From Oscillospiraceae bacterium (GTDB taxonomy: Bacteria > Bacillota > Clostridia > Oscillospirales > CAG-272): a DNA stretch of 33,883 nt. Position 1 is the first letter of the stretch. Every line of letters starts with the position of its first letter. The notes beneath the pieces are model-generated. The model had not been told where the DNA came from, made no database searches, and worked only from the letters and a program-made list of their open reading frames with translations. Below are positions 26,879-31,660 of this stretch, one piece after another. The stretch is taken from assembly GCA_015065335.1 (NCBI GenBank), contig SVQM01000011.1, positions 1 to 33,883 of the forward strand. Direction: 5' to 3'. Position numbers and translations under genes: made by a program.

Positions 26879-29500
26879 GTGCAATTTTCCGATATTAAAA
26901 ATAAACTTTCAAATGCAAAAAACATTCTGAGACCAATTCTCAGAAAACTTCGCATTTTCTGGTTTCCTCTTTTATTTTGTTATCTTGAGACCGTGCTCCA
27001 TTATTTCGCATACAGATCTTTTAGCAATAGTACGATGTGGATAATTCTTTTTTCCGTAGGTCTCGGCTTCTTTTTCACCTTTTTAACAAGTGTTTTTCCT
27101 AAAAAAGCGAACGCCATCCTTACATATGTTTTTACCTTTATTTTCACTTTGATCTTTGAGATACAGACTGTTTATTTTGAGATTTTCAAAGGATTTGCTC
27201 CCGTATCCTCGGTAAAAATGGGAGCTCAGGCTGTTACAAATTTCACGGGCAGCATGATCGAAGGTATCATGTCATCGCTGTTCTGGATATTCCTTATCCT
27301 TCTTCCCTTTTTGTTCCTGTGTATTTTCGGTATTTGGCTACGTCCAAAATTCAATCCTTCCGCAAAGATCATAAACCGATTTATCTCTCTCTTTGCGTCT
27401 ATAATCCTTCTTTTTGGCACGATCAGTATTATGGCGACATTCTTCTCCGGTACCCCTTCGGTTTATATGACCTTCTCAAGCTCTCGCACGTCAACTGACT
27501 CAAGCGTCAATTACTTCGGTCTTAACACCACGATGATCCAGGAGATCCGTTGGATCATCTTCCCCGAATCGGATAAGGCAACCTCAGAAACACTTTCAGA
27601 CCGTGTTTATCAGACAGGAGCCAATATCGACGAATCTATAGATTTCAAAGAACTTTATGAAAAAGCCGGAGACAATGCAGCGCTCAAAAATCTTACTACT
27701 GAGCTTTCCAATATGCCGGTAACACAAAAAAACATTTATACCGGGACCTGTAGTGGTTATAATCTTATCTCGATTTGTGCCGAGGCTTTCTCTCCCGTAT
27801 TCATAAGTGAGGAGCTCACTCCCACGCTCTATAAGCTTACTAACAGCGGATTTATCTTCGATAATTTCTATGCAACTTTCCCCAACACTACCACTAACGG
27901 TGAATATGCATTCTGCACCGGACTCTATCCTGATATGTCACGTGAAAAAACAGATTCCAGCTTCAGTGTATCCACCACTAATTACCTTCCCTATTGCTAC
28001 GGCAATATCTTCCGTAAAAGTGGTGCCAACGCATATGCTTACCACAACTATGTAGCCGAGTTTTACTACCGCAATTTCACTCATCCTAATATGGGATATC
28101 TTTTCAAGGCTGCTAACAGCGGTCTTGATATGGAGATCACATGGCCATCCTCTGACTACGATATGATGAAGGCATCTGTAGACGACTTTATAAGCAGCGG
28201 TGAGCAATTTGTTGCTTATTACATGACTTTCAGCGGTCACTATCAGTACACCCTTGCTAATGCGATGAGTGCAAAAAACTGGAATACCGTAAAGGATCTC
28301 CCCTATTCTGAGGCAGCACGTGCGTATATCGCTTGCAATCTTGAACTTGAATATGCTCTGACTTATCTGATGGAGCAGCTTGAGGGAGCCGGGATCGCCG
28401 ATAAAACCGTAATTGTGCTCACAACCGATCATTATCCTTACGGTCTTACTGATGAGCAGTATGCGGAGCTTGCAGGACATGAAATAAATGATGTGTTCGA
28501 CAAACAAAAGAACAGCTTTATTTGTTATGTACCCGGAATGGATCCTGTTCACGTTGATGAGTATTGCTCCACCGTTGATATACTGCCGACAGTTCTGAAT
28601 CTTTTTGGATTCACTTATGATTCACGTCTTCTCGTAGGACAGGATGTACTTGATCCCGATGCTGAGCATGTTGCTATTATGGCTGACGGTAGTTTTATTG
28701 CCGATGGTATTTCTTATGATGCCTCGAAGATCGCATACTCATACGACAACATGACTGATGAGGAATTTGTTCGTGGTGAAAAGCTGTATAAAGCAGTTCA
28801 GAAACGTTTCTACGTAAGTACCGAGATCCTGAACAACGATTACTATAAGTTCGTATTCGATGTGTCATCTGATTCAGAAAAGATCGACGATCTCACAAGT
28901 CCCTATGAAGATGTGGGAATAATGACACAGTCTCCCGTTTATTTTGTGCTGAAGCATGACATAATGGATCCTTCGTCGGAGACAAACTTTGGACTTTATG
29001 AAAATTGTCCTATTATCACCGTTATAGATTCTATGTACAGAGTAGCTGATAATGTATATGGGGAAGATAAAAATTCTTATGATGACGGTGCATACAGAGA
29101 CAAAAACTGTCCTTTCTTTGCTTCCGAAAAGCATACAGATGCTATTATCTGGGCATATCGTCATGGTATTTTAATTGATGACGGACTTATACCACATGAT
29201 CTGAACAGTACTATCACTCTCGGACAGTTCGCCATCTTAATTGAGAGGTCTGCTGATTACTTCGGAATGAGCACCTATCTCGAATGGAGCCTTCTCAAAA
29301 ACTCCACTGTATATTATCGATATCTTGATGAGCGTATACTACACGCTTCACTTTTCTGTCGGGAAATGAACATTATCATCGGCGACGGAAATAAAGATTA
29401 CGTATTCTACACATCAACTGCTACTTTGACCAAGTATTTTGTTGTTGAGTCTATCTACAGATTGTGCTCATACTATGTAATGCCGGGAACCGAACAATGA
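26879..29500 (+). CDS. LtaS-like phosphoglycerol transferase (sulfatase fold) with SLH-like C-terminal region
   Basis: An 873-residue membrane enzyme. The GTG start follows AAGGAG by eight bases. Five hydrophobic helices lie in the first 200 residues, as in lipoteichoic acid synthases. The extracellular sulfatase-fold domain follows: a metal-site Glu in ICAEAFSP (about 299), the nucleophilic Thr region NTTTNGEYAF (about 335), and the Asp-His pair in VLTTDHYPYG (about 515). It should transfer glycerol phosphate or a similar group to a cell-surface polymer. After the enzyme domain ends (about 600-650) there are two stretches that look like degenerate SLH repeats: about 735-795 (AIIWAYRHGILIDDG, later TLGQFAILIER) and about 805-865 (ASLFCREMNIIIGDG, later TLTKYFVVESIYRL). 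SLH repeats bind secondary wall polymers, and this fusion is unusual. The gene stands alone, with its own promoter. Confidence 0.85.
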   Translation: MQFSDIKNKLSNAKNILRPILRKLRIFWFPLLFCYLETVLHYFAYRSFSNSTMWIILFSVGLGFFFTFLTSVFPKKANAILTYVFTFIFTLIFEIQTVYFEIFKGFAPVSSVKMGAQAVTNFTGSMIEGIMSSLFWIFLILLPFLFLCIFGIWLRPKFNPSAKIINRFISLFASIILLFGTISIMATFFSGTPSVYMTFSSSRTSTDSSVNYFGLNTTMIQEIRWIIFPESDKATSETLSDRVYQTGANIDESIDFKELYEKAGDNAALKNLTTELSNMPVTQKNIYTGTCSGYNLISICAEAFSPVFISEELTPTLYKLTNSGFIFDNFYATFPNTTTNGEYAFCTGLYPDMSREKTDSSFSVSTTNYLPYCYGNIFRKSGANAYAYHNYVAEFYYRNFTHPNMGYLFKAANSGLDMEITWPSSDYDMMKASVDDFISSGEQFVAYYMTFSGHYQYTLANAMSAKNWNTVKDLPYSEAARAYIACNLELEYALTYLMEQLEGAGIADKTVIVLTTDHYPYGLTDEQYAELAGHEINDVFDKQKNSFICYVPGMDPVHVDEYCSTVDILPTVLNLFGFTYDSRLLVGQDVLDPDAEHVAIMADGSFIADGISYDASKIAYSYDNMTDEEFVRGEKLYKAVQKRFYVSTEILNNDYYKFVFDVSSDSEKIDDLTSPYEDVGIMTQSPVYFVLKHDIMDPSSETNFGLYENCPIITVIDSMYRVADNVYGEDKNSYDDGAYRDKNCPFFASEKHTDAIIWAYRHGILIDDGLIPHDLNSTITLGQFAILIERSADYFGMSTYLEWSLLKNSTVYYRYLDERILHASLFCREMNIIIGDGNKDYVFYTSTATLTKYFVVESIYRLCSYYVMPGTEQ

Positions 29501-29509
29501 TATAGTGAT

Positions 29510-29546
29510 AACATTAGCACACTTCACTGAGCAGTGTGCTAATGTT
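29510..29546 (+). terminator. Perfect 14-bp-stem hairpin after the LtaS-like gene
   Basis: AACATTAGCACACT (29510-29523) pairs perfectly with AGTGTGCTAATGTT (29533-29546). No T run follows directly, but the first hairpin of the tandem units with a T6 run comes nine bases later and may be the true stop. Confidence 0.6.
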
Positions 29547-29554
29547 CATCATTC

Positions 29555-29829
29555 AAAAAGCTCATCACATAGTGATGAGCTTTTTTGGTTGACCCATCGG
29601 AGAGTCAGAACTGACGGAGTTCGACTCTCCTACGTAAAAAGCCCATCACTATGTGATGAGCTTTTTTGGTGGTGAGCCATCGGAGAGTCAGAACTGACGG
29701 AGTTCGACTCTCCTACGTAAAAAGCTCATCACACAGTGATGAGCTTTTTTGGTGACCCATCGAAGAGTCAGAACTGACGGAGTTCGACTCTCCTACGTAA
29801 AAAGCCCATCACTATGTGATGAGCTTTTT
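29555..29829. repeat. Tandem ~81-bp units: terminator hairpin plus rearranged tRNA-Lys 3' end
   Basis: The hairpin AAAAAGC(T/C)CATCAC...GTGATGAGCTTTTTT recurs at 29555, 29636, 29719 and 29799 (spacing 81, 83 and 80 bases). Between the hairpins, each unit holds GGAGAGTCAGAACTGACGG followed by AGTTCGACTCTCC, a second stem-loop, and on the minus strand a copy of the 3' end of the adjacent tRNA-Lys, GATGGGTCACCA. The units differ by a few substitutions and small insertions: one has GATGGCTCACCACCA, another GATGGGTCAACCA. There is no coding potential. The hairpins can end transcription from both sides. Confidence 0.9.
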
Positions 29830-29905
29830 TGGTGACCCATCGGAGAGTCGAACTCCGGACACCATGATTAAAAGTCATGTGCTCTGCCATCTGAGCTAAT
29901 GGGTC
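29830..29905 (-). tRNA. tRNA-Lys (anticodon TTT), CCA encoded
   Basis: Read on the minus strand, the 76-base gene has a seven-pair acceptor stem (GACCCAT with ATGGGTC), D arm AGCTCAGATGGCAGAGC, anticodon loop CTTTTAA on the stem ATGA/TCAT giving anticodon TTT, T arm CGGAGTTCGACTCTCCG, discriminator A and an encoded CCA. A terminator-type hairpin directly follows the CCA. Its 3' end is the source of the tandem units beside it. Confidence 0.97.
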
Positions 29906-31372: not shown

Positions 31373-31648
31373 TCTTCTTTTCTTGAAAGAAAAGAAGCAA
31401 AAGAACTTTAGGACTTGGGACAAATCTATAACTTACGATAAACCTTCTACATACTGCTATCCGCATTTTCACTTCTTCCCGGAAAGAAAAGAAGCAAAAG
31501 AACTTTAGGGCATGGGATAAATCTAAAAAAATATGATAACACTTCTACATACCGCTATCCGCATTTTCACTTCTTCCCGGAAAGAAAAGAAGCAAAAGAA
31601 CTTTAGGGCATGGGATAAATCTAAAAAAATATGATAACACTTCTACAT
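31373..31648. repeat. 98-bp tandem repeat in the glnS to Gfo/Idh gap
   Basis: The unit starting CTTCTACATAC recurs at 31444, 31542 and (beginning only) 31640, exactly 98 bases apart. Units 31444-31541 and 31542-31639 differ at one base that I can see. A third, diverged partial unit (31373-31443) precedes them and contains the hairpin CTTCTTTTCTTGAAAGAAAAGAAG, written here in part. The 403-base gap 31332-31734 holds this, the palindrome at 31661-31720, and no gene. Confidence 0.9.
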
Positions 31649-31660
31649 AAAGCTTTTTGG

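Follow-up and report, generated by a model that had tools for sequence, protein, structure and literature searches.

The tandem repeats behind a tRNA-Lys(TTT) gene of an Oscillospiraceae bacterium are best read as a reduced form of a real family of structured repeats, which is tied to the 3′ ends of tRNA genes and is without a match in the RNA-family library. The array lies within a stretch of 33,883 nucleotides, referred to here as the window. Neither the array nor the other units that were tested match any known Rfam family, and no account of such units was found in the open-access literature by a search that was narrow and is weak evidence. Here, we describe the array, its relatives in other uncultured Clostridia and the explanations that can be offered for them; the best of these, to which we give about an even chance of being right, is that the units constitute a DNA-level, probably mobile hairpin repeat.

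The original prediction, made from the letters of the window, described three tandem units beside tRNA-Lys(TTT), each with a terminator-type hairpin, an inverse T arm, a T-arm copy and an acceptor tail including CCA. Both the number of units and their anatomy are confirmed by tandem repeat detection (TRF) and by reading of the sequence, at 80–83 bp each. The array extends from 29555 to 29854 with a period of 80 (TRF), a 163-bp period also being reported, and on the minus strand units 1, 2 and 3 measure 80, 83 and 81 nt, respectively. Identity is 97.5% between units 1 and 3, 89% between units 1 and 2, and 92% between units 2 and 3. The minus-strand order is tRNA-Lys, hairpin, unit, hairpin, unit, hairpin, unit and hairpin, ending at 29555; as a small correction, the terminator-type hairpins number four, one immediately behind the tRNA and one behind each tail copy. 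Each unit comprises a terminator-type hairpin, ACGTA, an exact inverse T arm (GGAGAGTCGAACTCC), GTC, AGTTC-T-GACTCTYC and GATGG[G/C]TCA(A)CCA (table 1). The T-arm copies read AGTTC-T-GACTCTCC, with one T inserted exactly between tRNA positions C56 and G57. The last 18 nt of tRNA-Lys, with up to two substitutions, occur four times in the window and always within the array, which folds far beyond shuffled controls (z = −17). The array is single-copy in its own genome, and an exact 29-mer of the unit has no match in the genome and viral collections. An inverted repeat at its far border is probably the terminator of a convergent plus-strand open reading frame (26879–29500), and a second tandem repeat (31385–31649; 98-bp period, 2.7 copies, 93% matches) is present elsewhere in the window, between two minus-strand open reading frames.

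Table 1. Coordinates of the tRNA-Lys array and its border in the window.
Feature	Position	Strand	Basis
tRNA-Lys(TTT), CCA encoded; source of copied T arm and tail	29830..29905	-	ARAGORN; RF00005 66.7 bits
Terminator-type hairpin 1, immediately 3′ of tRNA CCA	29799..29829	-	sequence
Unit 1 outer stem: inverse T arm 29779-29793, T-arm copy with extra T 29762-29776	29762..29793	-	DNA fold -10.7 kcal/mol
Unit 1 tail copy GATGGGTCACCA	29750..29761	-	
Terminator-type hairpin 2	29719..29749	-	
Unit 2 outer stem: inverse T arm 29699-29713, T-arm copy 29682-29696	29682..29713	-	
Unit 2 tail copy GATGGCTCACCACCA	29667..29681	-	
Terminator-type hairpin 3	29636..29666	-	
Unit 3 outer stem: inverse T arm 29616-29630, T-arm copy 29599-29613	29599..29630	-	
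Unit 3 tail copy GATGGGTCAACCA	29586..29598	-	
Terminator-type hairpin 4, closes the array	29555..29585	-	
Separate inverted repeat, far border of the array; probable terminator	29510..29546	+	read from sequence

The full unit forms a three-way junction, in which a stem of the inverse T arm and the T-arm copy, with one base bulged, encloses two inner hairpins, H1 and H2. Downstream of the first hairpin, its elements follow one another in the order inverse T arm, H1, H2, T-arm copy and a tail copy of variable length. In the source genome H1 is of the ATTTGC..GCAAAT type; H2 has an 8-bp stem (..TTTGCG / CGCAAA.. type) that closes a loop of some 33 nt; this loop measures 32–34 nt in 100 of 119 units and shows little sequence conservation. 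The Lys units of the window lack H1 and H2, having only the outer stem with a short loop and the tail, and the window gives no match to the full-unit covariance model R2 at E up to 1. What they share with the family is the cognate inverse T arm, the T-arm copy with an extra base at 56/57 and the first tRNA hairpin upstream. They are best read as a reduced derivative that would have lost H1 and H2, because a 76-nt tRNA-Lys gene identical to that of the window is followed in genome G262 by a full unit with the same extra T.

The arrangement recurs at other tRNA genes of the source genome, where the original prediction had suggested looking for it. The tRNA genes were located with RF00005 and the sequence downstream of each was read; a model-free test then sought TTC, 1–3 nt and the tRNA's own positions 57–63 within 450 nt. 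This test flagged 13 of the 23 testable tRNAs, that of the window included, of which two were discounted: the Arg(TCT) flag picks up the neighbouring His unit, and no unit is visible at Ser. A related unit therefore stands behind 11 of the 23, with none in upstream and reverse-complement controls; reading of the downstream sequence showed such units, besides that of Lys, at Thr(CGT), Pro(TGG), Pro(GGG), Val(GAC), His, Gln(TTG), Gln(CTG), Leu(TAG) and two of Arg(CCT). A covariance model built from eight units finds 17 strong units in this genome.

Several individual loci deserve mention. An orphan unit of the source genome (L064 1423–1560, minus strand) has a tail that resembles a tRNA 3′ end (GGTTCGAATCCAGTCACTCCGACA), is without the extra base and has no tRNA gene in the available sequence. 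A match to Gut-1 RNA (RF01706) above cut-off lies just past the tRNA-Gln(CTG) unit (L024 1784–1860), and a DUF3885 gene (PF13021) is found, as if cargo, between units 2 and 3 behind tRNA-Leu(TAG) (L021 382–960, minus strand). Genes for 23S rRNA-intervening-sequence proteins (PF05635) occur downstream of tRNA genes in the source genome and in G120 (L005 and L128 1866–2219), and similar reading frames, identified by eye, adjoin runs of small hairpins behind other tRNAs (L010, L025).

Across uncultured Clostridia, 119 distinct units were found in 41 genomes. The first model (eight units, strict filters) reports units in 32 of 295 genomes of the family and 23 of 71 genera, some of the weakest matches possibly being due to chance; a second model reports them in 11 of 394 genomes across the order, other families included, under strict filters, and in 18 of 21 species of one genus under sensitive filters. 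Named records with units are metagenome-assembled genomes (MAGs) of uncultured ruminant-gut Clostridia and one Oscillospiraceae MAG. Pattern matches in Methylobacillus and Pseudomonas look like chance, because neither gives a convincing model match, and a pattern scan of viral contigs gave no match. The scattering of units far from any tRNA, raised at the outset as the counter-case, is not what was found: where the sequence ahead of a unit is available, it nearly always contains a tRNA or tmRNA gene. Units lie at most 700 nt downstream of such a gene and on the same strand in 94 of the 119 cases, and 17 of the remaining 25 have no more than 250 nt of available sequence upstream of them. The 70 first units start 45–62 nt past the gene and serve 28 kinds of tRNA/tmRNA gene, a figure with an uncertainty of one or two, in which tmRNA is a single kind and tRNAs are told apart by anticodon.

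Each unit is matched to its own tRNA. In 48 units compared with their tRNA, the T-arm copy matches the cognate gene at 90% or more at positions 57–63, where non-cognate tRNAs match at 26–98% (26% at position 59, 30% at position 63); agreement decays to about half at positions 71–76. Exactly at 56/57, 1–3 extra bases are present in 47 of the 48 units, a single base in 39 of them, mostly A. The left arm of the outer stem likewise has its highest score against the inverse T arm of its own tRNA. At the orthologous tRNA-Thr(GGT) locus of G090 and G213, where T-stem pair 49–65 differs, each tail copy follows its own tRNA. Simple insertion leaves the cognate state of both outer-stem arms unexplained.

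The fold of the unit was set by hand; RNAalifold on the first automatic alignment, in which the H2 stem was misplaced, recovered H1 only. With the alignment fitted to the model, which favours pairing, two-sided changes are found in 21 of 22 pairs, and 92.7% of cells are paired, compared with 24–46% in slid controls. The composition of these pairs differs from that of tRNA stems: G-U makes up 1.0% in H1 and H2 together, against 5.6% in the acceptor stems and 9.3% in the T stems of tRNAs at the same loci, and the non-Watson–Crick cells of H1 and H2, unlike those of tRNA stems, are mostly other mismatches. Such a composition suggests that it is DNA strands that pair, or that both strands matter. 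The test is not decisive, because the first hairpins, presumably RNA terminators, are equally G-U poor (1.7%).

While the outer stem follows the local tRNA, the inner core is related between different loci of the same genome. Core likeness has a median of 0.51 between different tRNAs within one genome, compared with 0.45 for the same tRNA in congeneric species and 0.39–0.41 in other genera. This within-genome excess is seen in H1 and in the loop (0 of 300 permutations each), and less strongly in the H2 stem (19 of 300). The cores of one genome thus resemble one another more than they resemble those of the same tRNA in sister species, and so the core appears to spread or convert within genomes, and the outer stem to stay cognate. 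In G132 the units of tRNA-Ala and tmRNA have H1, H2 and much of the loop in common, but their first hairpins, spacers and arms differ. Gain or loss is seen at the orthologous tRNA-Leu(CAA) locus of one genus, with one unit in G120 and G201, two in G073 and none in G006 and G162; between G120 and G201 there is a paired change in the H1 stem, and the flanks are almost identical. At the same locus (G120:C7 and G201:C217) the terminator-type hairpin behind the tRNA has been changed by many paired substitutions between near-identical flanks. Behind tRNA-Arg(CCG), about 2 kb with units and open reading frames in G120 (L128 200–2420) stands against about 250 bp in its sister G006 (G006:C2 81924–82177).

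In the DNA-level reading, the units would act as hairpins of DNA, single-stranded or cruciform, during recombination or copying at the tRNA T loop by a putative enzyme. Copying would move or convert the inner core between the tRNA loci of one genome, the outer stem would become or stay cognate to the local T arm, and the former tRNA 3′ end would be left behind as the tail copy. The tRNA gene would stay intact, and the repeat would thus be tolerated. Tandem units could then multiply via unequal recombination between direct repeats; units 1 and 3 of the window are near-identical, as they might be after duplication of a two-unit block. In favour of this reading count the cognate ends of the units, their few G-U pairs, the terminator-like hairpins ahead of most first units, the greater likeness of cores inside a genome and the differing copy number at tRNA-Leu(CAA); against it, counts of recombinase (PF00589) and transposase (PF01797) genes linked no enzyme to the units.

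The main rival, possible although somewhat unlikely in our estimate, is that the unit is a structured RNA, a noncoding RNA produced by read-through of the tRNA terminator and acting on tRNA processing or growth control. Strong covariation speaks for such an RNA, as do the fixed place and orientation behind tRNA genes, the conserved length of the H2 loop and the compensatory change between sister species. In a variant, the inverse T arm would have two alternative partners, the T arm of the tRNA itself and the copy, and could so form a switch against tRNA misfolding in read-through transcripts; in the predicted RNA fold of the window, the first inverse arm is indeed base-paired to the T arm of the tRNA. 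Against an RNA stand the rarity of G-U pairs, the poor sequence conservation of the H2 loop, and the absence of units from most tRNA genes and many genomes, together with their varying copy number. At least 62 of the 70 first units moreover follow a terminator-like hairpin (dG below −10, with a T-run), and joint transcription with the tRNA is therefore not expected of most units. The idea that tails transcribed by read-through engage CCA-adding enzymes or serve as decoys found no positive support: upstream lie the terminator-like hairpins, the acceptor/CCA part of the tail copy is only partially retained across units, and the T-arm copy should form no T loop, since it is predicted to be base-paired to its inverse; a decoy T arm was rejected on this ground.

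Likeness in architecture to the RtT RNA of Escherichia coli (Rfam RF00391, rttR; tyrT/tyrV), the nearest precedent for the units, also speaks for an RNA. RtT RNA comes from the tyrT operon, is transcribed with the tRNA and is released by processing. Like the units, RtT elements stand in tandem behind a tRNA gene and hold copies of its 3′ end, each ending in a perfect copy with CCA, and the tail copy is paired with its own inverse (GGGGAAGGAT / ATCCTTCCCC) around inner hairpins. In E. coli K-12, three perfect 19-nt tail copies are found behind tyrV within a run of RtT elements, and tyrTV gives four RF00391 matches of 133–138 bits. RtT differs in that its units are 178 bp apart, occur in the stretch examined at tRNA-Tyr only, and are without a cognate T arm with an extra base at 56/57 or a terminator hairpin directly after CCA. 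The RF00391 model has no match in the window or in seven unit-bearing loci scanned, and no cross-match was obtained in either direction between the unit model and E. coli RtT; because of this, the two are alike in outline but not one family.

A bolder form of the DNA-level reading, which we consider unlikely, holds that the units belong to a new site-specific DNA system, in which folded hairpins, matched to each target through complementary bases, are copied into almost any tRNA or tmRNA gene at its T loop, with docking like that at integron attI and the E. coli tyrT repeats as a distant relative. The attC sites of integrons are recombined as folded single strands by the integron integrase. 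They are imperfect palindromes with a variable inner part and with RYYYAAC and GTTRRRY boxes (PMC3053210), and they resemble the units in the imperfect palindrome, bulged base, variable inner part, similar length and arrays beside a fixed docking site (PMC3053210). Yet attC has two extrahelical bases where the units have one bulge site, and neither box was found in any of 58 units; with the core boxes absent, membership is ruled out. Capture of sequence in the 33-nt H2 loop in the manner of CRISPR was also rejected, because within a genome the loops at different tRNAs are alike.

It is decidedly improbable that the units are neutral repeats, whose complementarity is maintained by mutation alone, through template switching where hairpins form and through gene conversion with the adjoining tRNA, and which have neither function nor dedicated mobility. 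Such processes would suit the very few G-U pairs, the paired substitutions in the first hairpin of G120 and G201, the tail copies that follow their tRNA at an orthologous locus and the tandem arrays, which fit unequal recombination. They leave unexplained a core common to many unlinked tRNAs and tmRNA, the constant length of the H2 loop, the fixed start past the gene and the inserted base, whose position is the same in almost every unit. The original prediction had offered slippage between terminator hairpins or scars of repeated integration as possible origins; its hint at the tRNA 3′ end holds, but slippage alone is insufficient because the core is common to many tRNAs, and ordinary integration scars are insufficient because the inverse arm is cognate.

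That the units are remnant attachment sites, left with cargo by tyrosine-integrase islands entering tRNA 3′ ends, is very improbable. In favour of it, the tail copy looks like the identity block of an attachment site, DNA with open reading frames separates the tRNA from the units, or one unit from another, in some arrays, and sister species differ in how long the tRNA-Arg(CCG) flank is. Against it, site-specific integrases do not usually account for one core type at 28 kinds of gene, neither the one-base insertion nor the inverse arm is typical of attachment sites, and no integrase match lies beside a unit among the positions listed. Counts of PF00589 (tyrosine recombinase) and PF01797 (Y1 transposase) do not separate unit-rich from unit-free genomes, and integrase genes are present in all 14 genomes tested, with 2–7 matches each in both groups alike. 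Casposons, another class of element found at tRNA genes, have as their hallmarks a Cas1 integrase, PolB and terminal inverted repeats. Both tyrosine-integrase islands (PMC8371274) and casposons (PMC4046053) leave the tRNA gene intact and its 3′ end duplicated beyond the inserted DNA. The duplicated 3′ end is all that they have in common with the units, which are about 80–165 bp long, have no gene of their own, target many tRNA/tmRNA genes and carry an inverse T arm.

Copies of a tRNA tail behind tRNA-Tyr have long been known as a curiosity of the E. coli tyrT operon, and the units turn this into an arrangement that recurs at many tRNA and tmRNA genes and across genera. They offer a sharp handle on the attraction of repeats and mobile DNA to tRNA 3′ ends, because a cognate T-arm copy with its inverse, a one-base insertion at a constant site and an inner fold that is conserved are combined in a single element. 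The units are in addition a ready test set for distinguishing selection on hairpins at the level of DNA from selection at the level of RNA.
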